Below the pieces are notes generated by a model that made no database searches, was not told the DNA's origin, and saw only the letters and a list, made by a program, of their open reading frames with translations. Both the position numbers and the translations under genes were made by a program. From Oscillospiraceae bacterium (GTDB taxonomy: Bacteria > Bacillota > Clostridia > Oscillospirales > Ruminococcaceae): a stretch of DNA of 64,000 bases. The stretch's first letter is position 1. Each line of letters starts with the position of its first letter. This document shows positions 17,160 through 38,348 of this stretch, in pieces. The DNA is taken from assembly GCA_017415165.1 (NCBI GenBank), contig JAFQIY010000043.1:62001-126000 (forward strand), given 5' to 3'.

Positions 17160-17386
17160 AGCTGATGAGTGGTTTCTCATCAGCTTAGCCTGTCGATAAA
17201 GTCGACAGGCTAATGAAAAATGAATAATGAATAGTGAATAGTTAAGGTGTCCGCTTTGCGGACATTTTTAATTTTATTGCCGAAGGCAATTCCTTAATTA
17301 TTCATTCTTCATTATTCAATATTCACTATTCATTGTCGAAAAAACTTTTTCGACAAACTGAGCTGATGAGTGGTTTCTCATCAGCT
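17160..17386 (+). repeat. Terminator-flanked hairpin repeat, copy A
   Basis: A 175-bp element (17186-17360) lies between two identical 26-nt terminator hairpins (17160-17185 and 17361-17386). The element begins with a CCTGTCGA/TCGACAGG hairpin, has AT-rich arms that pair across a TGTCCGC/GCGGACA hairpin, contains an ATTGCC/GGCAAT hairpin and ends with a TGTCGAAAA/TTTTCGACA hairpin plus AACTG. Only the distal terminator copy retains the T-tract. The sequence codes for nothing. Confidence 0.8.
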
Positions 17387-17393
17387 TTTGTGT

Positions 17394-18146
17394 TTATATT
17401 ACAAAATATTTCACAACCCAGATCACAACCAGATGCAGAGGGTAGAACAGATAAAAGAACCATTTTGCAAATACGGGATGATTGCCCTTTTTCCCGTTGT
17501 AGAACGTTGTTACGCAAAGATATGACAGGGCGAAAAATGTGACATTAAGGAAGAAATTGAGCACATCAAGTACCAATACCAATTCGATTAACTGGTGCAG
17601 AAGTATGCAGCTGCCAAACCATATAAGCCGTTTTTTCGGATTGTCACGGAAAATATGGAAACCAAGAATTATTACCGGTCCGAAAATCATCCATTCGCAG
17701 AACAACAGAAGTGATGCGATGTCCACAAGTACAATCAGTATGATTTTCTTTTTCAGCGAGTAGTCCTTTTCCCATATCGTAAGTGTGATTACACCGAGAA
17801 ACAGCGTGAAGAAAATGTTCAGGTTTGTGAAAAATTCCGTGGTGAGAAGCGTGCCATTGTTGGCAAGACAGAACGGAAATTGGGTGATTACCGCAAAAAT
17901 CAGCAGGCGGATTGCGTAGCTTTTCCGTGAGTGAGTGTAGTGGAAGCCCTCGGCTATGAAAAAGAAGAATATCGGTGGTGCGAGAAGCGACATCTGCGTA
18001 AGTAGTTTAAGCCACAGCGGTACAGGGGAGAGCGTTTCCCAGTCGGGTACATAAGAGAAAAAGTGCCCGATTGCCATTGGAATTATGGCAAGGTATTTTA
18101 TTGCGTCACGGTTGAGGATTTTCAGTTTTTGTGATTTTTCGGTCAT
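17394..18146 (-). CDS. TraX-family membrane protein
   Basis: The 250-residue protein has about eight hydrophobic segments and the TraX pattern: an early DAIKYLAIIPMAIGHFF, an FFFFIAEGFHYTHSRKSY loop and the C-terminal FYLFYPLHLVVIWVVKYF. TraX of the F plasmid acetylates pilin; chromosomal relatives in Firmicutes are putative acyltransferases of unknown substrate. ATG 18146 is preferred to GTG 18155, which lies too close to the AAGGAC ribosome site. It follows the DUF2716 gene by 32 bases and is probably co-transcribed. Confidence 0.85.
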   Translation of the reverse strand: MTEKSQKLKILNRDAIKYLAIIPMAIGHFFSYVPDWETLSPVPLWLKLLTQMSLLAPPIFFFFIAEGFHYTHSRKSYAIRLLIFAVITQFPFCLANNGTLLTTEFFTNLNIFFTLFLGVITLTIWEKDYSLKKKIILIVLVDIASLLLFCEWMIFGPVIILGFHIFRDNPKKRLIWFGSCILLHQLIELVLVLDVLNFFLNVTFFALSYLCVTTFYNGKKGNHPVFAKWFFYLFYPLHLVVIWVVKYFVI

Positions 18147-18178
18147 AGCGGTCACGTCCTTTTTGGTGGTTTTTATGT

Positions 18179-18625
18179 TTATTCACATAAATCAAGTTCA
18201 GCTTTATGCTTTTCAAATAATTCAATCAGCTTATTACCTACAACATAGATTTCACTTTTCCAAGGATGTCCCATTAAGCCATAGGAGTAGTCGGCTGACA
18301 CAAAAGCATAGTAATCCCCGTCAGGATAATATGTAGGGAAATAAACATTGCAATCTCTATCTTTATCGTACCACTCAGTATTGAAGGGAATATTTTCGTG
18401 AGGACTGAAAATAAAGCAATCGTGCTGCCAGTCAAGTGCATAGATTTCCTTGTTGCTGATTTGCTTGAAAATCCCGTTGACAAGACGCTCCTGGTCTTCG
18501 TTCCATAATTTGACTTTAAATGTTTTGAATGGTTCGGTACAGCTGAAATCTTTAGGGTAATTAAACCTTTCATTCATTGTATTCCAAATGTCATCATACA
18601 AATTGTTATCAAGAATTAGTTTCAT
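18179..18625 (-). CDS. DUF2716-like protein
   Basis: The 148-residue soluble protein is rich in Tyr and Trp, with PFNTEWYDKDRDCNVYFPTY and DYSYGLMGHPW, and resembles DUF2716, a family of unknown function whose members may be immunity-like. ATG 18625 follows AAGGAGC. First gene of a likely operon with traX-like. Confidence 0.65.
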   Translation of the reverse strand: MKLILDNNLYDDIWNTMNERFNYPKDFSCTEPFKTFKVKLWNEDQERLVNGIFKQISNKEIYALDWQHDCFIFSPHENIPFNTEWYDKDRDCNVYFPTYYPDGDYYAFVSADYSYGLMGHPWKSEIYVVGNKLIELFEKHKAELDLCE

Positions 18626-18655
18626 AAATGTTGCTCCTTATCTGTGTTATAAGTA

Positions 18656-18683
18656 TTATTACACGGAATTGCTGATGTGTCAA
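18656..18683 (-). promoter_or_regulatory. Promoter of DUF2716-traX operon
   Basis: Minus strand TTGACA (18678-18683) with TAATAA (18656-18661) at 16 bp. The -35 is perfect, the -10 moderate. Confidence 0.55.
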
Positions 18684-18744
18684 GTGATGTACTGAAACTG
18701 TGATATTTAAGTTATGACTGTAGACACTTTTACGGTTATCAGTT

Positions 18745-18943
18745 TTTATTAACGGTACAATATTCGTTGCGAATAGTCAAGGATTTGTGCGAACATAAAA
18801 GCACCCTTATGCTGCAAGGTATCAATAGTAAAGCAAAAACATAATCATCAAATAAAATGGAACAATCTTATTTTTGCACTTGGCAGCTTTAAAATTATGT
18901 TATATAATGAATATGTTTCCATTTTGAGATAATGGGAAAGGCT
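18745..18943. other. Decayed duplicate of the HipA-operator to DUF6125 upstream region
   Basis: The palindrome TATTCGT-T-GCGAATA (18761-18775) plus the following AGTCAAGGATTTG copies the AbrB-like operator at 12150, and AAAAGCACCC copies part of the next terminator. The three small genes are missing. Then TTGGCA-N17-TATAAT (18880-18908) copies the DUF6125 promoter. This is the relic of a tandem-like duplication with internal deletions. Confidence 0.7.
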
Positions 18944-19096
18944 ATGCCGTTTCATCCGTGCAAGTCTGTAGGGATTATTGAATACAGTGAGTTTGCTAAA
19001 ACAATCGACAGCAGCTTTACCTGCGAATGTGTAAGCTGTTATCCTGATATTACGGATAGTTCCTGCTGCTGTAAGTGGAAATTTACATTAGGCTGA
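18944..19096 (+). pseudogene. Truncated DUF6125 copy with only the cysteine-rich domain
   Basis: Fifty codons, starting MPFHPCKSVGIIEYSEFAK and ending CCCKWKFTLG, match the C-terminal third of the 13265 gene with few changes. The N-terminal 120 residues are deleted, but the promoter (18880-18908), a GGGAAAGG ribosome site and an in-frame ATG remain, and all cysteines are kept. It may still be expressed as a small cysteine protein; it is called a pseudogene because of the deletion. Confidence 0.65.
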
Positions 19097-19097
19097 G

Positions 19098-19127
19098 TTG
19101 ACATTTAGTTTTGGTCTGTGATATAAT
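19098..19127 (+). promoter_or_regulatory. Promoter of the two-component operon
   Basis: TTGACA (19098-19103), 18 bp, TATAAT (19122-19127), immediately after the truncated DUF6125 copy. Confidence 0.75.
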
Positions 19128-19178
19128 CATAAAAATCTGTACGTTTAAACTATTTGACTTAATAGGGGAGAAATAATT

Positions 19179-19892
19179 ATGAGAATAGCAATCTGTGATG
19201 ATGAAAAAAATGCTCAGTGTGAAATATCTTCTTTGATTAAACAGTACAGCCCGAATAAAAATATCAATATGTCTGTTGATATTTACGACAGCGGCGAGAA
19301 GCTGTTATCCTCACAGCCTGACTACGACATAATAATTATGGATTATAAAATGGCTGAAATTGACGGGATAGAAGTTTCCAGACAACTCAGAAAAAACAAC
19401 AATGACTGCACAATTATCTTCATAAGTGCCTATCCCTCTGTTGCACCTGACGCTTTTGAAGTAAACACATTCCGTTTTATTACCAAGCCCATAGACAGCG
19501 AAAAGCTTTTCAAGGCGCTGGACGATTATTTTACGAAAATTGAAAGCAACAATCTGCTGGTGCTGAAAAACAATGACGGACTTTGGAAAATAAAAATGTC
19601 CGATATAATCTATGCCGAAGCGCACAGAAAGCATACCGTTATCCGTACCGCTGATAAAACCTTTGAGGTGTGTATGCAGTTAAAGGAAATTGAAGCACAG
19701 CTGCCGAAGTCGAAATTCATAAGAAGTCATAAATCGTATGTTGTGGGCTTCAATCACATTTTGAACCATACCAATGAGGAAATTCTTTTTGATAATAATG
19801 AAAAGGCTGACATCGGCAAGCATTATGCCGCAGATTTCAAGGCGGCATTCAGTGATTATATAATACGATGCAATAAAGGATTGGAAAGATGA
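19179..19892 (+). CDS. LytTR-family response regulator
   Basis: The 237-residue protein has a receiver domain (IAICDDEKN, phosphoacceptor in IIMDYKMAE, FISAYPS, FITKPI) followed by a LytTR DNA-binding domain (IIYAEAHRKHTVIRT, then RSHKSYVVGFNHIL). It overlaps the kinase start by ATGA, so the two form an agr-type two-component system that would respond to a peptide or envelope signal. No autoinducer-peptide gene is apparent next to it. Confidence 0.9.
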   Translation: MRIAICDDEKNAQCEISSLIKQYSPNKNINMSVDIYDSGEKLLSSQPDYDIIIMDYKMAEIDGIEVSRQLRKNNNDCTIIFISAYPSVAPDAFEVNTFRFITKPIDSEKLFKALDDYFTKIESNNLLVLKNNDGLWKIKMSDIIYAEAHRKHTVIRTADKTFEVCMQLKEIEAQLPKSKFIRSHKSYVVGFNHILNHTNEEILFDNNEKADIGKHYAADFKAAFSDYIIRCNKGLER

Positions 19893-21169
19893 AATATATA
19901 GCAGGCTCTTTAGCGTGGGGTTTTACAATAGTGGTATCATTGATACTGAATAATGTTCTGAATACAGAAAAGAATAAAAAAAGCAATATGCTTGCTTCTG
20001 CCGCATTGTGCATATTTCTTTCATTTGTATCGGGCATATTCTACACATTTAAAACCTTCTTTTATGATACTATAGCAATGCTTGTGTATACGCTTGTTTA
20101 TTTATTTGGAATAATCATTGCAAATGGTTGTTTTAAACTGAGGTACTTATACACAGTCTTTTTGTACGAGTTTACCGTAAACATAATTGTATCTTGTCTG
20201 GCGAATCTGATAAATCCGCTTTTGGGAATTCAGTATCATCCGTTGTATGTCGTAATTCTGACAGTTATAAATATCATATTGATGTCGGTAATTTGTTCCC
20301 GTCGCCAAAAGATATATTCTTCTGCACATTTTATTGCAGATGTTCTGCCAAAGTATTTATATGCTTTGATATTGTTTGCCGTGTTTAGTCTGTGTGGGTT
20401 GACGACATTGAATAATTATCCTACCGATTATATAGAAAAAAAACAGGGCATTATGAACTTTATATTTATAATATTGACATTTATTTTTATCTGTATAATT
20501 TCATCTTTGCTGGTAAATGTTATTCTGAAACAGCGATTCAGCAGCACATCGGAATTGCTGAAAAATCAGGTGGAGATACAGCTTCGCCATTATGACAAGC
20601 TTGAAAAGCTCAACAATGAAATGCAGTCATTCAGGCACGATTACATAAATCATCTGCGTAGTCTTCAGCTGCTTGTACAGATGAACGATAATAACGGTGC
20701 AGACGCATATATTGAAAAACTGCTTGACGAAAAACGCAGCACCTATGCAATGTTTTATACGGGAAACAGGCTTGCCGATGCAATACTCACCGATAAGTCC
20801 GACAGTCTGCCTGAGGGCTTCACTATCGAATATCAGGGCAAAATTCCGCAAACGCTGGATAACGTGCATTTATGTGTAATTCTCACTAACGCACTGGACA
20901 ATGCCATTGAAGCCTGCGGGCACTTATCATCTGCGGGTACGATTTCAATAACAGCACAGGAAAAACAGGGCTATTTCGTAATGACTGTTACAAATCCAGC
21001 TGCTGAAAATCTAAACTTCTCGGATATTCCTTCTACCACCAAGTCTGACGCCGAAAAACACGGTATGGGTCTGACAAATATACGCAAAGTTGTAGAGGAA
21101 TACGACGGACAGATGCGTGTAAATTGTGAAAACAGCATTTTTGAACTTTCGATTACCCTGAAATTATAA
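19889..21169 (+). CDS. GHKL-type sensor histidine kinase, AgrC-like
   Basis: The 426-residue protein has about six membrane helices in residues 1-215, a coiled linker, the AgrC-type H-box FRHDYINHLRSL (His near residue 249) and a HATPase domain with NALDNAIEACG (N-box) and KHGMGLTNIRK (G-box). It is translated from an ATGA overlap with the regulator. Ligand unknown. Confidence 0.9.
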   Translation: MKYIAGSLAWGFTIVVSLILNNVLNTEKNKKSNMLASAALCIFLSFVSGIFYTFKTFFYDTIAMLVYTLVYLFGIIIANGCFKLRYLYTVFLYEFTVNIIVSCLANLINPLLGIQYHPLYVVILTVINIILMSVICSRRQKIYSSAHFIADVLPKYLYALILFAVFSLCGLTTLNNYPTDYIEKKQGIMNFIFIILTFIFICIISSLLVNVILKQRFSSTSELLKNQVEIQLRHYDKLEKLNNEMQSFRHDYINHLRSLQLLVQMNDNNGADAYIEKLLDEKRSTYAMFYTGNRLADAILTDKSDSLPEGFTIEYQGKIPQTLDNVHLCVILTNALDNAIEACGHLSSAGTISITAQEKQGYFVMTVTNPAAENLNFSDIPSTTKSDAEKHGMGLTNIRKVVEEYDGQMRVNCENSIFELSITLKL

Positions 21170-21182
21170 TTATATATTTACG

Positions 21183-21221
21183 GAGCAGTTGTGGACTGAA
21201 AAACACAGCTGCTCTTGATTT
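21183..21221 (+). terminator. Terminator of the two-component operon
   Basis: An 11-bp stem with one G-T pair (21183-21193 with 21204-21214) is followed by TTGATTTTTG. Confidence 0.75.
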
Positions 21222-21262
21222 TTGTGTTTGTACCGTTTTCAGAGCCGTTGGTTCCTTTGGGG

Positions 21263-21291
21263 TTGACCTGAACATTATAAGACCTTATAAT
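21263..21291 (+). promoter_or_regulatory. Promoter of the second chemoreceptor
   Basis: TTGACC (21263-21268), 17 bp, TATAAT (21286-21291), 53 bases before the start codon. Confidence 0.75.
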
Positions 21292-21344
21292 TGAATTAAA
21301 TATACGCTGTATGTTATCAGTACAACAGCAAAGGGGTCTGCGAT

Positions 21345-22898
21345 ATGGAAAATACAACATCAAAAAGAACATACCTCACAGCTTTGGATGAATACATCAA
21401 CAAGGTTTATGTATTGGTGCTGCTTCTTGTGCCCGGAGCTTGTCAGTGTGCAGGTCTTGCGTACACGTTTGAGAAATTTATGGGCTGGCTTCCGAGCGTC
21501 AGCTGGACTGCCCTTATCATTTTCGACATTACCTGTCTGATTTATCTTACGACAGGAATTGTCCTGATAAAAACAGGCTTCAAGGATGGTCTGGTAAGAA
21601 AGGACAGGCTTAAAGTCGGCAAGGTATTTCTTGTACTGATTATGCTTATTCAGTTCAATTTTATTCTGTATATGATACCTGCGACAGACTTTTGGGGATT
21701 TGCGTTTTTCTTTGTTATTCTGACAGCCTTTTTCCTTGATTTTAAAATGGTAGCGGCTGCTTCTGCTGAAATTGCGGGTTCATTGGTAGTTGCGTGGTTT
21801 TTATACGGAGAAATTCATCTGCCTGCTCAGGGTGAGCATTTTATGGTAAATTTGCTTGACAGAATAATCTGCGTTGCATTGTCCCTGCCTACCGTTGTTC
21901 TGCTTACATATCTGATTGGCAGGTTTTTAGTCAATGCCAAAAAGGACGAAATTGAACGCAACACAGAAAGAACACAGAGCGTTCTTAACTCTGTGCAGGA
22001 GCTTTCGGAAAAGCTTTCTGCAGCAGGAACTACTCTGTCAGAGATAGCTGTAAATGAGGGCATATCCGCAGAAAAACTTTCAAATACAAGCTTGCAGCTT
22101 ATGGAAAGCAGTAATATGCTCAGCCGTAAAACCAATGAGAGCCTTTCAAATCTTGACGAGCTCAACAGATGGGAAGCTGAGGTTTCGGACAACGTTGAAA
22201 AGGTTGAAACAGCTTCGGTGAGTCTGCTGGAAAAATCCAGGGACAATGAGGTTCTGCTTGGTAATCTGCAGTCTGTAAATGCTGAAGTAACTCAGGCTAT
22301 GACTGAAACCAATGAAGCGGCTTCTAAGCTTTCGTCTGCCGTAAAGGAAATCGGAGTTGCGGTAAAGCTTATCGACGAAATTTCCACAAGTACGCATATC
22401 CTTTCCATAAATGCATCAATTGAAGCGTCCAGAGTCGGAGAATTAGGCAAGGGCTTTGCTGTTGTTGCACAGGAGGTAGGTTCTCTTGCGCAAAACACAA
22501 AGAATTCGCTTAATCAGATTGAACTTGCAATCAAAAAGGTGCAGGACAACGTTAACGAAATCACAATGCATATTCAGGATAATTCACGCAAGCTTTCACA
22601 GCAGAACGAGTATTTCTCCGACGTGTTCAGCGGAATGCAGGAAATGGGAACATTGCTTAAGCTTTCTTCAGACGCAATAGGACAGATGGGAAATGCTTAT
22701 GCAAAACAGAATGAGGTTGTTCAGAACACAGTACAGATAAATCAGGATATTGCAGGAAGTATTCGTTCAGAGAATGAGCAGTTTGTATCCATAACAGGTA
22801 TGGCTGAAAGCAATGCCGCAGATATTGAGCGTATGACTGAACAGATTACTGCCATAAACAATATGGTTGAAAAGATTAATAATGTATTGTCAGTGTAA
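21345..22898 (+). CDS. Membrane-integral methyl-accepting chemotaxis protein
   Basis: The 517-residue protein has about six membrane helices in residues 20-200 with only short outer loops, no HAMP domain, and a coiled-coil signalling domain with the hairpin tip ILSINASIEASRVGELGKGF (around residue 352) and FAVVAQEVGSLAQ. Such receptors usually sense membrane-linked or internal cues (energy state, turgor, light or hydrophobic ligands). It is monocistronic. Confidence 0.88.
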   Translation: MENTTSKRTYLTALDEYINKVYVLVLLLVPGACQCAGLAYTFEKFMGWLPSVSWTALIIFDITCLIYLTTGIVLIKTGFKDGLVRKDRLKVGKVFLVLIMLIQFNFILYMIPATDFWGFAFFFVILTAFFLDFKMVAAASAEIAGSLVVAWFLYGEIHLPAQGEHFMVNLLDRIICVALSLPTVVLLTYLIGRFLVNAKKDEIERNTERTQSVLNSVQELSEKLSAAGTTLSEIAVNEGISAEKLSNTSLQLMESSNMLSRKTNESLSNLDELNRWEAEVSDNVEKVETASVSLLEKSRDNEVLLGNLQSVNAEVTQAMTETNEAASKLSSAVKEIGVAVKLIDEISTSTHILSINASIEASRVGELGKGFAVVAQEVGSLAQNTKNSLNQIELAIKKVQDNVNEITMHIQDNSRKLSQQNEYFSDVFSGMQEMGTLLKLSSDAIGQMGNAYAKQNEVVQNTVQINQDIAGSIRSENEQFVSITGMAESNAADIERMTEQITAINNMVEKINNVLSV

Positions 22899-22927
22899 GC
22901 GTAAATTTAATATAATTTGAACGAATT

Positions 22928-22960
22928 AACGGCAAGGTGTTATAACCTTGCCGTTAATAT
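22928..22960 (+). terminator. Terminator of the second chemoreceptor
   Basis: An 11-bp stem (22928-22938 with 22944-22954) is followed by AATATTATTT. Confidence 0.8.
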
Positions 22961-23012
22961 TATTTGTTGAAACCTGACATAACATAATCGTATTTTTTGT
23001 ACAAGATTAACC

Positions 23013-23063
23013 TTGAAATTGAGAACCTACAATTGTATAATATAATTAAAACATACAATTGTA
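23013..23063 (+). promoter_or_regulatory. BlaI-type promoter with two operator boxes
   Basis: TTGAAA (23013-23018), 17 bp, TATAAT (23036-23041). Two identical palindromes TACAATTGTA (23028-23037 and 23054-23063) flank the -10, matching the TACA/TGTA operators of BlaI/MecI repressors. Confidence 0.85.
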
Positions 23064-23087
23064 GGTTTAATAAAGGAGCTGGTTTAA

Positions 23088-23462
23088 ATGAAAAGATTAC
23101 CCGATACTGAATTTGAAGTTATGCAGGGCGTGTGGAGGAGCGAAATTCCCGTTTCAACGGCTGAGCTTAAAGCCTACCTTGAAAAAGAACGTGAGTGGAA
23201 TATGTCCGCCTTGCAGACAATTCTCTCACGTCTTGAGGAAAAGGGCTTTGTCAGAAGTGAGAAAAACGGGAGAAACAGATTTTACACCCCGCTTATTGAG
23301 GAAAAGGACTACCTTGCCGACGAGGGTAAATCCTTTCTCAAAAGGCTTGGTGTAACAAAGCTGTCGGGACTTGTAGCGGCAATGTATGACGGAAAGGGGA
23401 TTTCTGACGAGGAATTGGAAGAGCTTCAGCAGTTCATTGACAGTCACAGAAAGGGAGAGTGA
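23088..23462 (+). CDS. BlaI/MecI-type transcriptional repressor
   Basis: The 124-residue protein has the penicillinase-repressor winged helix (LPDTEFEVMQGVWR, then WNMSALQTILSRLEEKGFV) and a helical dimerisation tail that in the family is cleaved or released on induction. Two family-type operators lie in its own promoter. It is followed by the sensor protease gene four bases after its stop. Confidence 0.9.
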   Translation: MKRLPDTEFEVMQGVWRSEIPVSTAELKAYLEKEREWNMSALQTILSRLEEKGFVRSEKNGRNRFYTPLIEEKDYLADEGKSFLKRLGVTKLSGLVAAMYDGKGISDEELEELQQFIDSHRKGE

Positions 23463-23466
23463 GCTT

Positions 23467-25773
23467 ATGGAAGAAATTGCTTATAGCTATTTTGAATATG
23501 GCTTCGGAGCGTATCTTACAAACCTGACAGCCTGCATAATCATAACTGCGGCGGTAATGGCATTGTTCCGAAAGACGTTGAAAAGCAAGTTCAGAAACAG
23601 CTGGACTTACGCAATATGGATAATTGCACCGCTGTGCTTTCTGCTGCCGTTCAAGTTCGAAACACCGATTACGCGGATACCGCTTCCGCTGTTGAATTTT
23701 GCGTTGTATATCAAATCTCCCGAGCCTGAGCTTGCAGAGGGAATAACCGAAATACAGCGTTACAATACAGGTGCAGCAGCTGACGGACTTCTTCTGTACA
23801 GCGTGCTGAAATGGGTATGGCTTGGTGTGTTTGCGTTACTGCTTATCGTTGAGTTGGTGCGGTATGTAAAGCTTGCAAAGGACATCAGAAAAAACGGTAC
23901 GGAGTGTTCATCGGAGGAATACGTGTCACTCCTCAGCGAAATCTGTGCTGAGTTGAAAATCAAAGTTCCGAGGCTTGTGATTTTCGGCAACTCGGATACA
24001 CCCTTTGCAATGGGTATTTTCAAGCCGAGAATAATCCTTCCCTCCGAAAATTATTCGGCAGAGGAAATAGGCTTTATTCTCCGTCACGAAGCCGTGCACA
24101 TAAAGCGTCATGATATTTTCGTCAAGCTTATGCTTATCGTGTTCAGATGTATGAATTGGTTCAATCCTTTTGTGTACATAATCTGCAAGCAGGCTTTCGA
24201 GGATATGGAGGTAACCTGCGACGAAAAGGCTTCAAATGGTTTTACCGACGAGCAGAGAAGCAGATATTCCTCAGCAATCCTTAAAGGCGTGTCACGTAAA
24301 AAGTACACAGCGGTAACAACCTATTTAAGCTCCGATGCAAAATCTCTTAAAAACAGAATTTCCGCTGTTATGACAGTTAAAAAGCTGGGCGGAGCAATTC
24401 CGTTTGTAATTGTATTTACCCTGATAAGCTTTTTATCAGCAACGGTTTATGCTTCACCTGATGAGCCGAATGCCTGGTATATTTATACATCACCGTACAC
24501 CCTTGAAGCTGACCCTTATGTTACAACAGAGGAATGGAAAACCTGTACTGCCTACACAGCTGAAGATGCGGCAGGAATAATTTTTGAGCAATATATGGAT
24601 ATGTATATGGGCGAGAAAGTACCTGAATATTACAGGATTGAGGAGTATTACATCAACGAGGTTGATGAGATAGATACGGGTTTCTTTGCACAGAAGGGAT
24701 TTCTGAATAAGCAAAAATTTGTAGAGGTGAACTACAATGTCAAGCTTGCAAACGAATGCGGAAATACGGTTCATTACAATAAATTAGGTTTGCAGCCGTT
24801 AGTAAACGGTTATTCTTTATACAATAAAATTTCATACGAGCTTGAAAATGAGGGGAACAGATGGACGCTTGTAAATTACGGCACAGCGGGGTCATCAGCA
24901 ATGTGGAACTATCATTATGAAAATGAACTGACGGGTAAACACCGCACTATTGATACTGTACAATGTATGGCAGAATGTGGTTTGCTTGATTACAGTTGGA
25001 ATACGACGGACAGGCTTCCTGACGCTGATGAATATGTTATGTGCAGTTATTTGTGGGGTGCAGAGTATACTATTGACTGGAAAGCTACATTTTCACCGAC
25101 AGTCAGATTTATGCTTAAAGCAAATTTGAATGATGAAAATTTTATTGAAGAAGCGTACAACAGCAAATACCTTGACGAAAACAGATATTTCATAAACACG
25201 GAAAGCTTCAATTTCAAGGATGTACAGGTTGTTTACTGCGGATATGACCTTGATATCATAAGCGGAGCAATGAAAATATATTTCAATGTGGATGACGAAC
25301 ATCCTCACGGAGTAATGCTTACATTTGAACGCAGAATTCTGGAAAATGGAGAACGGAGCAACACTCCTGAGCTTGTCTCCGTGGATGTTACAGATACGCT
25401 GTACACACCTTATGAATTTGCGGACAGCTTCCTTACAGCCGAGTTGCCCGAAGGTCTTACCGAGCACAAAACCGTGAACAGCGCAAAGGCAATACTTGAG
25501 TATATGAAAACTCCCCGTGACGGAATTGATTTCACGGTTATTGATTACAAGGATATTACCGAAACTGATGACGGAATTTATGCTGACGTCAAGTTCAAGG
25601 GACGTCTTGAAGGCATTTACTCCGCGGATATCCTCAATGCTGTGACAAACTATGAAAAGAAGAAGGAAAATCGCGTATACGGTTATGATGAAAGCTGTGA
25701 TGTTCCGCCCGAAGCTTATGACGGATATATGACCGTCTGCATTTTAAAAAATGGTAGAAATGCTGCCGTGTAA
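23467..25773 (+). CDS. BlaR1-like M56 metalloprotease sensor with large unknown C-terminal domain
   Basis: The 768-residue protein has membrane helices in the first 330 residues surrounding the zinc motif HEAVH in RHEAVHIKRHD (about residue 206) and a downstream EDMEVTCDEKA glutamate motif, as in BlaR1/MecR1. After a last membrane segment near residue 315-330 comes about 430 residues of outer domain that is acidic and Tyr-rich and is not a penicillin-binding (SXXK/SXN) domain. The inducer is therefore unlikely to be a beta-lactam. No effector gene is co-directional after it; a strong terminator follows. ATG 23467 was chosen because a longer frame runs into the repressor gene. Confidence 0.85.
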   Translation: MEEIAYSYFEYGFGAYLTNLTACIIITAAVMALFRKTLKSKFRNSWTYAIWIIAPLCFLLPFKFETPITRIPLPLLNFALYIKSPEPELAEGITEIQRYNTGAAADGLLLYSVLKWVWLGVFALLLIVELVRYVKLAKDIRKNGTECSSEEYVSLLSEICAELKIKVPRLVIFGNSDTPFAMGIFKPRIILPSENYSAEEIGFILRHEAVHIKRHDIFVKLMLIVFRCMNWFNPFVYIICKQAFEDMEVTCDEKASNGFTDEQRSRYSSAILKGVSRKKYTAVTTYLSSDAKSLKNRISAVMTVKKLGGAIPFVIVFTLISFLSATVYASPDEPNAWYIYTSPYTLEADPYVTTEEWKTCTAYTAEDAAGIIFEQYMDMYMGEKVPEYYRIEEYYINEVDEIDTGFFAQKGFLNKQKFVEVNYNVKLANECGNTVHYNKLGLQPLVNGYSLYNKISYELENEGNRWTLVNYGTAGSSAMWNYHYENELTGKHRTIDTVQCMAECGLLDYSWNTTDRLPDADEYVMCSYLWGAEYTIDWKATFSPTVRFMLKANLNDENFIEEAYNSKYLDENRYFINTESFNFKDVQVVYCGYDLDIISGAMKIYFNVDDEHPHGVMLTFERRILENGERSNTPELVSVDVTDTLYTPYEFADSFLTAELPEGLTEHKTVNSAKAILEYMKTPRDGIDFTVIDYKDITETDDGIYADVKFKGRLEGIYSADILNAVTNYEKKKENRVYGYDESCDVPPEAYDGYMTVCILKNGRNAAV

Positions 25774-25808
25774 GGACGGTATTCAGAAGAAAATAAAATA
25801 AGTTACAA

Positions 25809-25845
25809 AACCGCCGCAGTCATCAAAAAACTGCGGCGGTTAAAT
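25809..25845. terminator. Bidirectional terminator, GCCGCAG family
   Basis: A perfect 12-bp stem (25809-25820 with 25830-25841) lies between convergent genes. The same stem flanks the copy C repeat at 38112. Confidence 0.85.
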
Positions 25846-25868
25846 TATATCTATGCACTTTTATTAAG

Positions 25869-28928: not shown

Positions 28929-28974
28929 ATTTCCTACCCGTTTCTGCGTGCTTTTTCGTATTTCCCACCCGTTT
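28929..28974 (-). promoter_or_regulatory. Direct repeats upstream of the solute-binding protein operon
   Basis: Two 15-bp repeats (28929-28943 and 28960-28974; minus-strand core AAACGGGTRGGAAAT) differ at one position and are spaced 31 bp apart, about three helical turns. They lie 33-78 bases before the start and are candidate sites for the co-transcribed LuxR-type regulator. A further hairpin (GTTTCTGTG with CACAGAAAC, 29075-29106) lies upstream. Confidence 0.5.
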
Positions 28975-29178
28975 TGTGCTATTAGGGTAGTGCAAAAAAA
29001 CGTTATTTTTGATACCATATTATCTGCAAGGGTAAAAGAGAGTATATATCCTGCCTTGTTAAGGGTACTCAAAGTTTCTGTGGGTGCGCCAACAGTCACA
29101 GAAACCGCCCGTCTATTTATTTTAGCATATTGCACCGATTTAGTCAAGAATGTTAAAAATTGTAAAGGAGAAAAGGCT

Positions 29179-29637: not shown

Positions 29638-29640
29638 AAA

Positions 29641-30240: not shown

Positions 30241-30307
30241 TTCTGTGACACAAATGTATGTCAGTTCAAAACAACATTTTAATTGATTCAGAAAGGAAAA
30301 GAAACCA

Positions 30308-31807: not shown

Positions 31808-31845
31808 TACCATTCAGATGTGATTAAATTTCAGATACATAGGAC

Positions 31846-31876
31846 AGCGAAAGGGTGAAAAGCTCTTTCGCTCTTA
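31846..31876 (+). terminator. Hairpin terminator between lipoprotein genes
   Basis: An 8-bp stem (31846-31853 with 31865-31872) with a short T-rich tail lies between the two lipoprotein genes. Confidence 0.5.
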
Positions 31877-31895
31877 TGCTTGGAAAGGATATTCT

Positions 31896-33260
31896 ATGAA
31901 AAAGATAACAGGAATTATTTTAATGCTTTGTGTACTGCTTACATCTACAGGCTGTAACAGAAGCACTGATAAGGCTGTTGAAAGCACAGCTTCAGCAGCT
32001 TCAGAAGAGGCTTCGGCATCAAAGGCTGAAGAAACAGCAGCAGAAACAACAGCTGCACAGACCGAACAGACAACGGAATACACAGCTGAAACCGAGATTG
32101 TTCCGTCAGAAGTAAAAGAACATATACTGAAGCTTGACAGAAAAGAATTGTACGATTACGAATGGTCTGAGGAATATGGTATGGCTTTGGCGGAGCTTGA
32201 ATGTTCGGCAATATACCTTGGAGATGAGGACGCAAAACGTTATCCTGAGCTTGCAGATGCACTGTCCGCAGCTGCTGATTTTTATGAAGTCAATATGCTT
32301 GAAGGATTTGATATGGATAAGGAATCCGCAAAGGAACTTATTTCCTCAGGTGCAGAGGGATTTGATACGCTTGTGAACAGGCTTGATACACATATAAGAC
32401 GTGCAGATGATGTTGTGCTCAGTATTCTTTACGACTCCTATTACTATAATGGAATGAACAGCGGAAGCAGAAGCTTCTGGGGCGGAAATTATGACACGGA
32501 AACAGGTAAAGAGCTTCATCTCCCCGATGTTGTAACCGATATTGATGAGTTTGCGAAGGTTGTTGAAGCTGAGCTTTTCAGCACTGCTGGCGCAGATGTT
32601 TTTAACAGCGATACAATTATTGAAGATTATTTCAAGGAATACGGTGCTGACGGAACTCACTGGACGCTTGAATATAATGGTGTTACAGTGTATTTTGATG
32701 AGGGTGAAATTGCAGGCTCAGGCTTCGGAGCAATAAACCTCACGATAGAATTTGCAGAGTACCCTGAGCTGTTCAAGGAAGAATATACTAATGTACCCGA
32801 AGCGTATATTGTTGGTCTGCCGATGAAATCGACTTTCTGTGCAGACCTTGACGGTGATGGAAGCGGTGATGAGATTACCCTTGCCGACAGCTATGATGGA
32901 GAGTTTGATTGGAATGTAACGCTGTATGTTTACGTTTCAGAGGTCTACTATGCAGAAAGCTTCTGGGCTTACGGCTGCGAGCCGTACTATGTAAAGACCG
33001 CTGACGGAAAGAACTATCTGTACCTTTTCACTGAGCTTGAAACACAGATGTATCTTTATGTTTATGAAATTACAAACAGCACGATAAGCAAGGTCGGCGA
33101 AGCAAATCTTTCACCATTTTACAATGACGGAATATCAGCTGTTCTGACAGACCCGAACAGTATGCATTTTGATATTTTCAGCGATGAGGCAGGCGGGGGA
33201 ATTTCAGAGGGCAATGATATTTTTGCGGTAAGCGTTGACGGTATGCCTGCACAGGGATAA
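31896..33260 (+). CDS. Lipoprotein with RsiV-like (DUF3298) domain
   Basis: The 454-residue protein has a lipobox (STGC, Cys20) and a long Ala/Thr/Glu/Gln-rich linker to about residue 70. The middle (SRSFWGGNYDTETGKELHLP through LTIEFAEYPELFKEEY) follows the DUF3298 pattern of RsiV-type proteins, which bind lysozyme in Bacillus; no transmembrane anti-sigma part exists here. The last 150 residues (FCADLDGDGSGDEITLADSY) contain a calcium-loop-like DLDGDGSGD motif. Probable cell-surface sensor or binding protein. Confidence 0.65.
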   Translation: MKKITGIILMLCVLLTSTGCNRSTDKAVESTASAASEEASASKAEETAAETTAAQTEQTTEYTAETEIVPSEVKEHILKLDRKELYDYEWSEEYGMALAELECSAIYLGDEDAKRYPELADALSAAADFYEVNMLEGFDMDKESAKELISSGAEGFDTLVNRLDTHIRRADDVVLSILYDSYYYNGMNSGSRSFWGGNYDTETGKELHLPDVVTDIDEFAKVVEAELFSTAGADVFNSDTIIEDYFKEYGADGTHWTLEYNGVTVYFDEGEIAGSGFGAINLTIEFAEYPELFKEEYTNVPEAYIVGLPMKSTFCADLDGDGSGDEITLADSYDGEFDWNVTLYVYVSEVYYAESFWAYGCEPYYVKTADGKNYLYLFTELETQMYLYVYEITNSTISKVGEANLSPFYNDGISAVLTDPNSMHFDIFSDEAGGGISEGNDIFAVSVDGMPAQG

Positions 33261-33337
33261 TAAAGAAGCCATATAGATGAAATACCCGTAATTGTAAAAT
33301 GTATAATGGATAAACAGGAACGTAAAAAATGAACAAC

Positions 33338-33563
33338 AGGCGTATGTGAAAAAGCATACGCCTGAACCTGTCGATAAAGTCGACAGGCTAATGAAAAATG
33401 AATAAAGAATAATGAATAGTGAATAGTTAAGGTGTCCGCTTTGCGGACATTTTTAATATCATTGCCGAAGGCAATTCCTTAATTATTCATTATTCAATAT
33501 TCACTATTCATTGTCGAAAAGTTTTTTCGACAAACTGAGGCGTATGTGAAAAAGCATACGCCT
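33338..33563 (+). repeat. Terminator-flanked hairpin repeat, copy B
   Basis: A 174-bp element (33364-33537), about 90% similar to copy A by eye, lies between identical 26-nt hairpins (33338-33363 and 33538-33563) of sequence AGGCGTATG...CATACGCCT. The hairpin is unrelated to that of copy A, and only the distal one has the T-tract (GTTATTTTT). The rest of 33261-33731 holds no gene; TTGACA at 33635 may belong to the next gene's promoter. Confidence 0.82.
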
Positions 33564-33731
33564 GTTATTTTTATAGAAGCATTCTTGCTGCTTCATCAGA
33601 GTATATGCTTTTCTCTGCAAACACGGGCATATATTTGACAAAAACAGCATCATTGTTACACCATAATGGTCTAAAATGTGTTAAAGTATAATTACATTAA
33701 ACGGAAAACATTTTCGAGAAGGAGTGTTTAT

Positions 33732-35141
33732 ATGAAAAACTTTAAAAGAATAACAGCTATGATTTCAGCGCTTGCAATGTTCGGCACATTTACAGCGTGC
33801 AGCACAGATGACGGAATTGCAAGTGAGGCAGAGGTAACAAGTGCAACAACTGCACCTAAGCAGCTCAGCGAAGAAGAACAGGCAGCTGTACAGGAAGTCG
33901 AAATCACTGATGAAAAGCTTGAAAACGGTACAGTAAAATGGCTTGCTACATACGATATCAACCCTGACAAGGGCAAGCCCAAGCTGTTTGCACTTGAGCT
34001 TTTTGAGACAAAATACGGCGGAAAAATTGAATATATTCCAACAACCTGGGAAAACCGCTACAATGACCTTTCCACAATGGTAATCGGCGGAAGTGCTCCT
34101 GACCTTTTCCCTGCTCAGGAATTCGACACATTCCCAAGCAAGGTTGTTGACGGTATGTTCCAGCCGTTTGATGATTATCTTGATTTTGATGATGCGTCAC
34201 TCTGGACTGAAGGTGCAAAGAAGCTTGCTGATGCGCACGTTATGGGCGGCAAGCACTATGTTGCTCCTGTAAATACAGACTCCAAGTGTCTTATGATTTA
34301 CAACAAGAAAACAATGGAAGAAAACGGACTTACCGACCCTGCTGAGCTTCTTGCAGAGGGCAACTGGACGTGGGATACCTTCCGTGAAATGTGCCTTGAA
34401 TACTGCGACCGTGAGGCTGACCAGTTTGCTTATGACAGCTGGTATTTTGAAACACAGTTTGTACTTACAACAGGTGTTGCTCCGATTGCTATGGAGAATG
34501 GTCTTGTAAAGAACAATATTGACAGCGCTGAGCTTGAACGTGCTGAGAACTTTATGTATGAGCTGAAAAAGGCTGACCTGCCGCTTCCTAAGGCAGAGTT
34601 CAACTGGACAGAACAGCCTCAGCGTATTGCAGAGGGCAAGACACTTTTCTGGCCTTGCGCAACGTGGGCACTCTGGGAAGCTGACCTTTCCAAGTTCGGT
34701 GAACCGGGCGAGATTATGTTTGTTCCAATGCCTCGTGACCCTGACGCTGATGAGTATTATCTCCCTGCAAATATGGACGCTTACGCACTTTGTAAGGGCG
34801 CAGAAAACCCCGAGGGTGCAGCTGCATTCATCAAGTGCAAGCTTATTGCTGAAAAGGATGAAAGCGCACTGGCTATTACAGAAAATCAGTACCGTGAGGA
34901 CTACGGCTGGACTGACGAAATGTTTGAAATGTGGTACAAGGTAAGAGAACTTACCGACGCTAATCCTGTTGTCAGCCTCCATATGGGTCTCCCTTCCGAA
35001 GTAGCTGCAATCGTTGATGACTCCATCAAGCAGGCTTCCTTCAGCGGTAAGGACTGGAATGTTACAAGAGAAGAAATCAGCGGTCTTACACAGACAACCG
35101 TTGATGAACTCAACCACCAGATTCAAGAAAAGTTTTCCTGA
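33732..35141 (+). CDS. Family 1 extracellular solute-binding lipoprotein, orphan
   Basis: The 469-residue protein has a lipobox (FTAC, Cys23), a VKWLATYDI first strand and the usual sugar-binding-protein course (YIPTTWENRYNDLSTMVIGG, LFPAQEFDTFPSK, NTDSKCLMIYNKKTMEENG). It should bind an oligosaccharide outside the cell. No permease or ATPase gene lies near, so it must share a transporter elsewhere. ATG 33732 follows AAGGAG; an upstream in-frame start 54 bases earlier has none. Confidence 0.85.
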   Translation: MKNFKRITAMISALAMFGTFTACSTDDGIASEAEVTSATTAPKQLSEEEQAAVQEVEITDEKLENGTVKWLATYDINPDKGKPKLFALELFETKYGGKIEYIPTTWENRYNDLSTMVIGGSAPDLFPAQEFDTFPSKVVDGMFQPFDDYLDFDDASLWTEGAKKLADAHVMGGKHYVAPVNTDSKCLMIYNKKTMEENGLTDPAELLAEGNWTWDTFREMCLEYCDREADQFAYDSWYFETQFVLTTGVAPIAMENGLVKNNIDSAELERAENFMYELKKADLPLPKAEFNWTEQPQRIAEGKTLFWPCATWALWEADLSKFGEPGEIMFVPMPRDPDADEYYLPANMDAYALCKGAENPEGAAAFIKCKLIAEKDESALAITENQYREDYGWTDEMFEMWYKVRELTDANPVVSLHMGLPSEVAAIVDDSIKQASFSGKDWNVTREEISGLTQTTVDELNHQIQEKFS

Positions 35142-35167
35142 TTAATAATCCTCATAATTTTCCTTCT

Positions 35168-35208
35168 GATAACCCCGTTTCCAAGTGAAGCGGGGTTATC
35201 TCTTTTTT
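35168..35208 (+). terminator. Terminator of the orphan solute-binding protein
   Basis: A perfect 10-bp stem (35168-35177 with 35191-35200) is followed by TCTTTTTT. Confidence 0.9.
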
Positions 35209-35233
35209 AGCCGAAAGCTGCTCCAAGAAAAAA

Positions 35234-35407
35234 GGGCAGATATTATTATCCGCCCAAGTTTGTCGAAAAAGTCTTTTCGACAATGAATAATGAATAGTTA
35301 AGGTGTCCGCAAAGCGGACACCTTAACTATTCATTATTCTTTTTTCATTTTTCATTAACCTGTCGAGTTTATCGACAGGTTCAAGGGCAGATATTATATA
35401 TCCGCCC
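35234..35407 (-). repeat. Terminator-flanked hairpin repeat, copy D (inverted, shorter)
   Basis: A 127-bp element (35256-35382), in minus orientation, lies between nearly identical hairpins of 22 and 23 nt (35234-35255 and 35385-35407; GGGCAGATATTA...TATCCGCCC). It has the same end hairpins as copies A-C and a perfect central palindrome around GTCCGC/GCGGAC but lacks the second internal hairpin. The flanking hairpin terminates the minus-strand GH5 gene; the distal copy adjoins the A-run (T-tract on the minus strand). Confidence 0.8.
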
Positions 35408-35419
35408 GTATCTTTTCAA

Positions 35420-36373
35420 TTACAGATATTTCAGAAGTTCATCACGAATTCCGTCAAGCCTTGCATCGGAAAGTCCGAAGTCCATTTCCTTGTAGCTCCA
35501 AGCGCTTCTTGAAATGCCGTGCTTTTCAAATACTGCATTTATGCACTTGAACCATTTCAGTGTATCCTCAGGGGAAACCTTATCAATAACGCCATATTCT
35601 CCGCAGTAGAGATTTGTGTTATTTCTCTTTGCAGCTTCAATTGCCGAAGCAAAAAATTGCTCGAAATATTCCTCTGTAACTCCGCTTTCTTCAAATGAAA
35701 TTCTGTCCTCAGGATTAATCATATCAGTCCAGTAAGCACCCTGATGAGTAAATTTCAGCGGGTCGTAGCTGTGAAAATTATACACCACATTTTCGTCGTA
35801 AGGCTTTGCAAGGTCTTTAACAGCTTCGGCACTGTTATTCCAGTAGCTTCCCACAAGAATAAGCGTGTGCGGTGCAATAGCCCGTATTCTTTTTATGCAG
35901 GTTTCAGCAATAGAATTCCACTTTTCGCTGTACTCTTTATCTGTAACCTCGTTCAGAAGTTCAAATGCAATGCTGTCGGGACGATTTCCGTATCTGAGCG
36001 CAAATTTCTCCCACAGCCTGTAAAATCTCTCCTGCAAATCTTCGCTGTCAAAAAATCCGCTTTCATTTTCTCCGTAATTATCGAAGGAAAATCCTGCTGT
36101 TTTATGCAGGTCAAGGACAGCGTTCAGTCCGAATTTTGCGCACAATTCAAATGCACGGTCAATTCTTTCAAACCCGTCATTTTTATATGTACCATCGGAA
36201 TTTTCGAATATATTGTAGTCAACAGGTATTCTGACGTGGTCTACCTTCCAGCTGCTTATTTTTTCAAAATCAGACTCTGTAATAAAGTTGTTCAGTCTGT
36301 CTACGCTGTAGTCGCACTGTGAAAACCATCCGCCGAGGTTTACACCCTTATGAAAGCTTTTGCCTTTTAACAT
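35420..36373 (-). CDS. GH5 endoglucanase-type glycoside hydrolase, no signal peptide
   Basis: The 317-residue protein is a bare GH5 (beta/alpha)8 barrel: GVNLGGWFSQCDY, HVRIPVDYN, VLDLHKTAG, the acid/base Glu in FELLNEVT, YNFHSYDPLKF, the nucleophile Glu in LYCGEYGV and a final WSYKEMDFGL. There is no signal peptide or carbohydrate-binding module, so it acts in the cytoplasm on imported beta-glucan or cello-oligosaccharides. It is divergent from the GH16 lipoprotein gene, with near-mirror promoters between them. Confidence 0.9.
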   Translation of the reverse strand: MLKGKSFHKGVNLGGWFSQCDYSVDRLNNFITESDFEKISSWKVDHVRIPVDYNIFENSDGTYKNDGFERIDRAFELCAKFGLNAVLDLHKTAGFSFDNYGENESGFFDSEDLQERFYRLWEKFALRYGNRPDSIAFELLNEVTDKEYSEKWNSIAETCIKRIRAIAPHTLILVGSYWNNSAEAVKDLAKPYDENVVYNFHSYDPLKFTHQGAYWTDMINPEDRISFEESGVTEEYFEQFFASAIEAAKRNNTNLYCGEYGVIDKVSPEDTLKWFKCINAVFEKHGISRSAWSYKEMDFGLSDARLDGIRDELLKYL

Positions 36374-36428
36374 AATTCATCGTTCCTTTCAGAGTTTATG
36401 CTTTTAATATAGCATATCACATTTGTAA

Positions 36429-36517
36429 TTAATATCATAAACTTGTTCGTTATGTCAAAATATTGTCACAAAAACAACAACAAATAATTGACATATACAA
36501 CAAAAATATGATATTAT
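36429..36517. promoter_or_regulatory. Mirror-image divergent promoters of GH5 and GH16
   Basis: Plus promoter: TTGACA (36488-36493), 18 bp, TATTAT (36512-36517). Minus promoter: TTGACA (36453-36458), 18 bp, TATTAA (36429-36434). Both follow the same pattern, TTGACATA-N3-AACAA-N3-TATGATATTA, identical at 23 of 29 positions, so the two genes are probably controlled together by one factor. Confidence 0.7.
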
Positions 36518-36569
36518 CAGATTGTGAAAAGTATTATAATTATGTCATAAACAATTCGGAGGTAATTTT

Positions 36570-37349
36570 ATGAAAACTATAAAAATTATTCCAGCACTTC
36601 TGACAGCAGCAATGATATTTACAGCCTGCGGAAATGGGGCAGATGAAACTGTATCTGAAATCAATACGGAAGCTGTTGTTACAGAAAAAATTGATGACGG
36701 TTCAGCTTATGCCGAATTCACAAGCGGTATGCCCGCAGGATGGGAATGTGCTGACGGCTGGACAAACGGCAGTATGTTCAACGTTACCTGGCGAAAGGAC
36801 AACGTTACTTTCAATGACGGAAAAATGCAGCTGATAATTGACAAGGATTTGCTTGAAACAGATGGTATACCCTATGCGGGCGGAGAATTCCGAAGCACCG
36901 GATTTTACGGCTACGGACGATATGAGGTGTCGATGAAAGCAATAAAGAACAACGGCGTGGTTTCGTCTTTCTTTACATATACAGGACCTTCTGACGGAAA
37001 TCCCTGGGACGAAATTGATGTTGAAATTCTCGGCAAGGACACAACAAAGGTTCAGTTCAACTATTTTACGGACAGCAAGGGTAACCACGAGTATATGCAC
37101 GACCTTGGCTTTGATGCATCGGAGGATTTCCATACTTACGCATTTGAGTGGCACAAGGACAAAATTGTCTGGTTTGTTGACGGTGTTGAGGTTTACAGCG
37201 CACAGGAAAATATTCCTGTCACAGAAGGCAAGATTATGATGAATGCCTGGTGCGGAACAGGCGTTGACGGCTGGCTTAATGCATTTGACGATACAAATAT
37301 GCCCCTTACGGCAGAATATGAATGGGTAAGATTTACACCTTTTGAATAA
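36570..37349 (+). CDS. GH16 beta-glucanase lipoprotein (lichenase type)
   Basis: The 259-residue protein has a lipobox (FTAC, Cys20), a short linker and one GH16 domain with the catalytic motif DEIDVEILG at about residue 147 (nucleophile and acid/base Glu), plus [19 protein letters not shown] and [19 protein letters not shown]. It would cut mixed-linkage or beta-1,3-glucan at the cell surface. An AraC gene follows 21 bases later. Confidence 0.92.
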
Positions 37350-37370
37350 AATATAATCGGGAGGTATTTT

Positions 37371-38102
37371 ATGAACGTAAATAAAAAGCTGTCCCACGTT
37401 GAATTTCTTAATCGTGAATACAACATTTCGCATCTTTCATATGAACGTGAAATGGCGTTTTTCAACAGCATAAAGGAAGGCAATCCCGAAGAAGCGGCAC
37501 GTCTGTTCAAGCCGTTCAACAGCGAAGATATGGGCAGGCTGAGTGATGACAGCCTGCGTAATCTGAAATATCATCTGATTATAACGGTTGCTTTCATTAC
37601 ACGCTATTGTATCGAAGGCGGTATGGAGATGGAAGCGGCATACAATCTGAGCGATATATATATCCGCAGTATTGACAAGTGCCGTACCGAGGAAGAAATC
37701 AATCTGCTTCATCACGAGGTTGTTGACGACTATGCACAGAGGATGAATATTATCCGCAAACAGAACCGTTACCCTAAAGCGGTTACGATATGTCTGGACT
37801 ATATTTATGATAATCTGCACCGTAAAATATCGCTGGAAAAGCTTGCGGAAACCGTTTCGTTAAGTCCTGCCTATCTGTCAAAGCTGTTTCATAAGGAAAC
37901 GGGTATGACTGTTTCGGGGTACATAACTAAAAAGCGTATTGAAGCAGCCGCAAATATGCTGAAATTTTCGGATTATTCCTGCCTTGAAATTTCGGAGTAT
38001 CTTTGTTTCAGTTCAGAAAGCCATTTTATACAGGTGTTCAAAAAGCAGACAGGGTATACCCCTAAAACTTACCGTGAGAAATTTTTCAGGAGTAAGGTAT
38101 AA
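37371..38102 (+). CDS. AraC-family transcriptional regulator
   Basis: The 243-residue protein has a helical N-terminal part of about 130 residues without a cupin and a C-terminal double helix-turn-helix (ISLEKLAETVSLSPAYLSKL, then SCLEISEYLCFSSESHFIQV and the KKQTGYTPKTYREKF signature). It is co-transcribed with GH16 and is the likely regulator of the GH5/GH16 divergent promoters. Confidence 0.88.
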   Translation: MNVNKKLSHVEFLNREYNISHLSYEREMAFFNSIKEGNPEEAARLFKPFNSEDMGRLSDDSLRNLKYHLIITVAFITRYCIEGGMEMEAAYNLSDIYIRSIDKCRTEEEINLLHHEVVDDYAQRMNIIRKQNRYPKAVTICLDYIYDNLHRKISLEKLAETVSLSPAYLSKLFHKETGMTVSGYITKKRIEAAANMLKFSDYSCLEISEYLCFSSESHFIQVFKKQTGYTPKTYREKFFRSKV

Positions 38103-38111
38103 ATGTATTAA

Positions 38112-38348
38112 ACCGCCGCAGTTACCATACTGCGGCGGTGAGCCTGTCGATAAAGTCGACAGGCTAATAAAAAATGAATAAAGAATAATGAATAGTGAAT
38201 AATTAAGGTGTCCGCTTTGCGGACATTTTTAATCTTATTGCCGAAGGCAATTCCTTAATTATTCATTATTCAATATTCAATATTCACTATTCATTGTCGA
38301 AAAGGGTTTTCGACAAACTGACCGCCGCAGTTACCATACTGCGGCGGT
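38112..38348 (+). repeat. Terminator-flanked hairpin repeat, copy C
   Basis: A 181-bp element (38140-38320) lies between identical 28-nt hairpins (38112-38139 and 38321-38348; ACCGCCGCAG...CTGCGGCGGT). The hairpin belongs to the family also found uninterrupted at 25809. Only the distal copy continues into the T-rich tail. 38349-38458 holds nothing else recognisable. Confidence 0.82.

Follow-up and report, generated by a model that had tools for sequence, protein, structure and literature searches.

The closest described relatives of the elements reported here belong to the IS1182 family of insertion sequences (ISs). In staphylococci, IS1272/TnSha1 targets inverted repeats, several of which are confirmed transcription terminators, with no primary-sequence consensus, and the sections cited here describe partial or whole deletion of the stem-loop and no target duplication (PMC4923244, PMC5678879). 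The Discussion and Fig 13 legend of PMC5678879 also draw duplication of the whole stem-loop, as pathway b, while proposing deletion for IS1272. Both papers cite a review (Siguier et al.) for palindrome targeting by IS1182 members, and a table in PMC3281130 includes one IS1182 element with an apparent 4-bp repeat. Here we describe four miniature inverted-repeat transposable elements (MITEs) with IS1182-family ends in a stretch of 64,000 nucleotides (the window) from an Oscillospiraceae bacterium (GenBank assembly GCA_017415165.1, contig JAFQIY010000043.1, positions 62,001 to 126,000, forward strand), each of which stands between two copies of a terminator hairpin. Family and palindrome targeting are thus held in common with the elements covered by that review, as reported in the citing papers; transposase family and terminator or inverted-repeat targets are held in common with IS1272, whereas IS1272, as far as the cited sections go, deletes the stem-loop that is here duplicated whole. 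The arrangement in the window is real, abundant, and mechanistically informative.

Most DDE transposons leave a short target duplication whose length is constant and dictated by enzyme geometry: both 3' ends of the element are joined to opposite target strands, and gap repair produces the duplication. Tables for the IS1182 family reportedly give direct repeats of up to approximately 60 bp, which would agree with the lengths described here. A more distant likeness is found in clustered regularly interspaced short palindromic repeat (CRISPR) spacer and casposon integration, in which an integrase joins at the two ends of a sequence and this sequence is then duplicated (for CRISPR, it is often a repeat able to form a hairpin); the difference is that Cas1 is unrelated to DDE enzymes and that the CRISPR repeat is fixed in one locus. 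Among MITEs, RUP, BOX, and Chunjie are likewise short, AT-rich, hairpin-forming, intergenic, and thought to be moved in trans, and the cited portion of their description contains no terminator insertion with a hairpin-length target duplication (PMC10969869). A search by title and abstract found no paper in which IS1182 elements are reported to duplicate a whole hairpin; ISfinder and the majority of subscription journals lay outside this search, so we do not claim that the behavior is unrecorded.

Duplicated terminator hairpins in the window and its genome

The four elements and their flanking hairpins are present where the initial annotation had placed them, with corrected limits: including end bases, the MITE runs from (G)AG-CCTGTCGA to TCGACA-AACT(G). 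At site 1 (forward strand) the proximal terminator hairpin copy at 17160-17186 (27 bp) is identical to the distal copy at 17361-17387 (27 bp), which is followed by TTGTGTTT; between them lies the MITE AG-CCTGTCGA...TCGACA-AACTG at 17187-17360, with end hairpins at 17189-17209 and 17334-17355 and a central hairpin at 17248-17264. Site 2, on the same strand, has identical 27-bp copies at 33338-33364 and 33538-33564 around a MITE at 33365-33537 (end hairpins 33367-33387 and 33512-33532, central hairpin 33433-33449). Site 3 lies on the reverse strand and holds a short MITE (35256-35384; left end hairpin 35359-35379, right end hairpin 35261-35282, central hairpin 35304-35320), with a hairpin copy of 22 nt on its right-end side (35234-35255) and one of 23 nt on its left-end side (35385-35407). 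Site 4, again on the forward strand, has identical 28-bp copies at 38112-38139 and 38321-38348 around a MITE at 38140-38320 (end hairpins 38143-38163 and 38295-38315, central hairpin 38209-38225). Three of the four pairs are therefore identical within their locus, and the pair at site 3 agrees at 24 of 25 aligned positions, as had been noted from the window alone.

Copies were then catalogued throughout the genome of the window (G000; 2.62 Mb, 75 contigs, 93% complete). A copy search on both strands gave 76 matches, with 40 of 77 candidates scored, so that a few further copies may exist; exact end patterns gave 28 left ends and 32 right ends, and the stretches around these were fetched for the catalogue. 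At least 43 MITE copies were found, comprising 29 with two ends, 5 split across two contig ends, 6 with the left end damaged or missing, and 3 without one flank. The copy's own left and right flanks align at a score of at least 25 in 26 of the 29 two-ended copies (in one of these, L022, the match spans only 15 bp), while mismatched left and right flank pairs, used as a control, reach this score in 2 of 812 cases. All five copies split across contig ends pair by hairpin (scores 34-60), and two copies without the MITE's left end hairpin (L040, L045) still possess both target hairpins. In total, the same terminator hairpin stands on both sides in 33 of the 40 copies with both flanks known. The initial annotation had proposed that the hairpin is not part of the element and that the whole terminator hairpin is duplicated on insertion, a proposal that would have suffered had most genomic copies lacked such flanks; the genome-wide count bears it out. 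A separate observation concerns L040, L045, and L050, which lack the left end hairpin and have the AT-rich arm directly next to the terminator hairpin of the flank.

The duplicated stretch corresponds to one hairpin. In the 26 aligned copies its length ranges from 15 to 40 bp and that of the hairpin from 17 to 40 bp (r=0.91); its 5' boundary falls exactly at the hairpin foot in 19 of the 26, and its 3' boundary at the foot or one base past it in 20. Insertion at the border between hairpin and T-tract, as first supposed, does not fit these data, given that the boundaries of the duplication fall at both hairpin feet.

IS1182-family ends and autonomous elements

The MITE has ends that correspond to those of insertion sequences of the IS1182 family (CAGnYTGTCGAAAAAG): its right end reads CAGTTTGTCGAAAAAG, it also carries GAGCCTGTCGATAAAG, and IS ends read, for example, CAGTCTGTCGAAAAAG or CAGCCTGTCGAAAAAG. 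The suggestion that these elements had no known relative is accordingly set aside, the family being IS1182 and its member IS1272 already described, in the sections cited, as targeting terminator hairpins (PMC4923244, PMC5678879).

An autonomous element with the same ends was found in a related genome (L201, in G151). It is 1510 bp long, lies between two copies of a 31-bp hairpin, and contains an open reading frame (ORF) of 473 amino acids. The family profile scan, which was run on this protein only, identifies it as an IS1182-family transposase (NCBIfam NF033551, 396.2 bits against a cut-off of 270), and it also exceeds the Pfam cut-offs for PF13751, PF05598, and PF01609. D146, D273, and E400 are invariant in nine aligned transposase proteins and, by their position, form a putative DDE catalytic triad; no solved structure was similar by sequence at E<=0.01. 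Homologues of this protein (E<=1e-20) occur in 47 of 396 genomes of the family. The autonomous partner that had been anticipated thus exists in relatives, and its enzyme is a DDE transposase, not a reverse transcriptase or an HUH nuclease.

We examined 35 autonomous copies, namely L201, 20 stretches from the listed places of its homologues, and 14 chosen plasmid or phage copies. The same hairpin stands at both ends in 17 of the 35. Eleven of these are from genomes of the family (L201, L253-L256, L258, L259, L264, L265, L271, L272), including all four matches listed in a single-contig genome (L253-L256 in G392; 4 of 28 candidates scored), and the others are from Cetobacterium somerae (L274), Sutcliffiella horikoshii (L276), Acetoanaerobium noterae (L309), Aminobacter sp. 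(L312), Salinivibrio kushneri (L313), and Macrococcoides canis (L315, in which a further end-like sequence lies beyond the second hairpin). Paired-hairpin autonomous copies span five bacterial classes and include plasmid copies in Fusobacteriia, Bacilli, Clostridia, Alphaproteobacteria, and Gammaproteobacteria. Fourteen phage records had a transposase match, one of which was read, and no transposase was confirmed in viral contigs. Where IS ends could be located, 53 of 60 abut a hairpin foot, compared with 639 of 12000 shuffled flanks (5.3%), a comparison in which the 60 ends include loose motif matches (e.g. L223, the true ends of which fall beyond the zone that was scanned) and the paired ends of one duplication are not independent.

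Natural controls, target structure, and a proposed mode of insertion

Two natural controls, a nested MITE and a paralogous terminator, support true duplication. The site 1 terminator has two paralogues in the window, both on the forward strand, without an element and with a single hairpin (9352-9408 and 44636-44692). The former can be aligned both to the left-flank half of site 1 (hairpin and the bases upstream of it) and to the right-flank half (hairpin and TTTTGTGTTT), although it has only one hairpin. The nested case is found in a relative genome (G356, 71% complete), where a second MITE interrupts the central hairpin of one MITE copy and that hairpin, GTGTCCGCTTTGCGGACAT, stands on both sides of the inserted MITE; the central hairpin is single in 44 of 44 uninterrupted two-ended copies (29 of 29 in G000, 15 of 15 in G356). 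Because the interrupted copy is divided between two contig ends with a 17-base overlap, the value of approximately 276 bp for its inner length is provisional. In regard to the comparison with empty sites that the initial annotation had called for, it is these nearest equivalents that carry a single hairpin.

The T-tract pattern and the orientation of the elements both required revision. The distal hairpin copy does retain the downstream T's (mean 5.2 T in the 8 nt after it), as first reported, and the proximal copy equally retains the upstream A's (mean 5.1 A in the 8 nt before it; n=26); this is expected because any duplication leaves downstream T's with the distal copy and upstream A's with the proximal one. 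Based on ORF calls, the neighbors of the 29 two-ended copies are convergent in 15 cases, both rightward in 6, and both leftward in 4. At three sites (L012, L017, L018) the left neighbor is a real gene, with Pfam support, that is transcribed away from the MITE, and therefore the terminated gene lies on the right side. A fixed orientation relative to the terminated gene was considered and is rejected as a rule on account of these three sites together with the mixed neighbor directions, including the six sites at which both neighbors run rightward. Several autonomous copies, furthermore, have targets without a clear T-tract (e.g. L254, L271). Given mixed orientation, A and T flanks of about equal strength, and such targets, the most fitting description of the target is a palindrome, which is usually a terminator.

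The explanation that we favor, with a probability of roughly 0.8, is that an IS1182-type DDE transposase, not present in the G000 assembly, moves the MITEs in trans. It would choose its target by structure, that is, a palindrome able to extrude as a hairpin or cruciform and most often an intrinsic terminator. On each strand, one 3' end of the element would be joined at the hairpin's 5' foot, and repair of the gaps would copy the hairpin on either side. This would account for a duplication of exactly one hairpin, be it short or long. Where the site has no hairpin the duplication would be only about 5-9 bp, in line with the short ones at L086, L088, and L106 in G356 and, by eye, the 8-bp one at the autonomous L267. 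Because the lengths vary over several helical turns and the boundaries do not depart from the feet, the hairpin is probably already extruded, with its feet close together, when the enzyme joins the ends, since a rigid transpososome on B-DNA would presumably be unable to span such a range (approximately two to four helical turns). Joining at both 5' feet corresponds to pathway b of the model figure in PMC5678879, as drawn in its legend. That an IS1182 enzyme moved these particular copies is suggested by their ends, given that no IS1182 transposase was found in G000 and that G356 is not among the genomes with a match.

Several observations weigh against this explanation. Among the 40 copies of G000 with both flanks known, one (L050) has only a partial stem match, in which the stems agree and the loops differ, and six have no duplicate hairpin (the first copy of L020, L034, L043, L044, L051, L052). 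In G356, L096 has a half-hairpin copy only; L086, L088, and L106 have no hairpin at the site and a short duplication (7-9 bp local match, flush approximately 5-9 bp), and are counted among the exceptions of that genome; and L092 and L095 have no duplicate, L095 being flanked by two different hairpins. Eighteen of the 35 autonomous copies lack a matching hairpin pair. Eight of the 35 have two different hairpins at their ends (L257, L260, L262, L266, L275, L278, L310, L311) and may record recombination between copies or adjacent deletion; in L261, L263, L273, and L316 one end alone is visible, and a hairpin adjoins it; L267 lacks a hairpin and, by eye, has a duplication of 8 bp; and L268-L270, L277, and L314 are truncated, have other ends, or have no pair. 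With respect to the enzyme, G000 has neither a PF13751 match (E<=0.001) nor a homologue of the L201 protein (E<=1e-20), and at 93% completeness loss of the transposase and a gap in the assembly are indistinguishable; G356, at 71%, is absent from the 47 genomes with a homologue. The left neighbor is directed toward the MITE in 23 of 28 called cases (ORF calls), and a weak orientation preference may therefore exist. Lastly, no syntenic empty site was found for L027 in a search of 20 other same-genus genomes: its flanking genes are on different contigs in the 18 same-genus relatives that list both halves, and the comparison is for that reason indirect only.

A doubtful but possible variant retains the transposase and the duplication and places the target hairpin in single-stranded DNA, either on the lagging-strand template or in the transcription bubble at the terminator, rather than in a double-stranded cruciform. 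RNA polymerase pauses at terminators, a hairpin on one strand would suffice to attract the enzyme, and the bias of left neighbors toward the MITE (23 of 28) is in keeping with it. Strand transfer must, however, reach both strands at opposite feet, which a cruciform offers directly, and neither the lack of a fixed orientation (six sites with both neighbors rightward; L012, L017, and L018 reversed) nor autonomous targets without a clear T-tract (L254, L271) is readily accommodated. Replacement of the stem-loop in the manner of IS1272, without duplication and with the two hairpins as coincidental neighbors, draws on the behavior of a member of the same family that, in the sections cited, targets terminator hairpins (PMC4923244, PMC5678879), and on the eight autonomous copies with different hairpins at their two ends. 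It is nevertheless very improbable as a general account, given that the two hairpins agree in sequence in 33 of the 40 MITE copies (against 2 of 812 in the cross-pair control) and in 17 of the 35 autonomous ones, and given the nested insertion, where the hairpin stands on both sides in the interrupted copy and once in uninterrupted ones. The 33 of 40 copies that keep two hairpins are not of the hairpin-deleting type; replacement is refuted for copies with matching hairpins, and could hold for some of the others.

If the terminators were already in tandem, or if the second copy arose by later gene conversion, the element would merely lie between them, and similar terminator sequences do recur in G000 (families D6 and D8). 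The paralogous terminators at 9352 and 44636 are single, however, the duplication ends at the hairpin feet, and in the ten same-genus loci viewed for L027 the end of the left gene was visible in six, none of which, by eye, had the same hairpin twice (two had a second, different hairpin further on), so that we hold this account to be highly unlikely. Equally hard to sustain, and if anything more so, is descent from a terminator-seeking group IIC intron, another retroelement, or an HUH element (IS200/IS605, RAYT). Group IIC introns insert after terminators and IS200/IS605 elements carry end hairpins, but the ends here match a DDE transposon, HUH elements are not known to duplicate their target, and no Rfam family reached its gathering score in the window. 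No reverse transcriptase or HUH gene was seen between the same ends among the loci fetched, in which reverse transcriptase was not specifically searched for, and the one autonomous element annotated in full (L201) encodes a transposase.

Should insertion at the feet of a hairpin be the rule, autonomous elements and MITEs alike could occupy intrinsic terminators with a full hairpin retained on either side, and dozens of transcripts would gain an element at their 3' ends. This suggests how a swarm of MITEs can fill tens of terminators with the hairpin kept intact, and it sets a duplicating mode beside the published hairpin-deleting mode of IS1272 within one family. Unlike the fixed-length duplications of most DDE transposons, the duplication (approximately 20-42 bp in clear cases) follows the folded structure of the target. 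We lean slightly toward a wider reading, in which IS1182-type transposases would be a broad class of DDE enzymes that measure structure: insertion would be into an extruded cruciform rather than B-DNA, and the duplication would be one whole hairpin, long or short. Were extrusion confirmed, the insertion sites would record where hairpins or cruciforms form at terminators in vivo, which is otherwise hard to study, and the elements would offer a source of enzymes for biochemistry.

Related miniature elements and other repeats

The left-end pattern of the MITE occurs, among the 396 genomes of the family, in G000 and G356 only; a left-end search of genome contigs matched 12 stretches, 8 of them from RGIG2166, and a search of viral contigs gave none. 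In G356, 16 copies of the G000-type MITE have both flanks known (L108 has one flank only), and the whole hairpin is duplicated in 10 of the 16, in 8 as judged by alignment and in a contig-end pair (L101/L107) and the interrupted copy as judged by eye; the duplication reaches up to 42 bp in L093. L088 and L106 lie, by eye, beside promoter-like AT-rich sequence. A solitary left-end hairpin (CCTGTCGA...TCGACAGG) is present at L090 (G356:C13:36301-36321), apparently within a composite terminator, with the rest of the MITE absent.

Other MITEs display the same arrangement. In a second family in G356, 14 of 24 ends find a hairpin match (score >=40) when the ends are paired among the loci covered. 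The pattern TCAGNYTGTCGAAAAAGN{1,25}TGCA was found in 14 of the 396 genomes, representing 10 genera, compared with one genome for the reversed control, and the loci returned include five different elements of MITE size, from four genomes, that are flanked on both sides by the same hairpin (L198, L199, L207, L210, L216). In another MITE-sized element (L209, in G437:C44) the flanking hairpins are nearly the same sequence with the loop inverted. Repeats that match the AT-rich arms of the MITE (ATTCACTATTCAT type), frequently accompanied by central hairpins, are present in 23 of 100 relatives (L054-L082); neither IS1182-like ends nor, by eye, paired hairpins were found at the nine loci viewed, for one of which (L054) the view missed the match. 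These arms look like a wider class of intergenic repeats.

Two further kinds of repetition were observed in the window. Similar terminator hairpins (ACCGCyGCAG... and AGCTGATGAG...) recur at 10736-10763, 25810-25837, 45619-45643, and 59884-59917, as well as at the two paralogues of the site 1 terminator described above, as if the terminators themselves had been copied about. Three collinear direct repeats with 81-90% identity (12149-12195/18760-18806, 13191-13267/18870-18946, and 13620-13784/18936-19100) suggest a duplicated region, the two copies of which lie approximately 5.3-6.6 kb apart.

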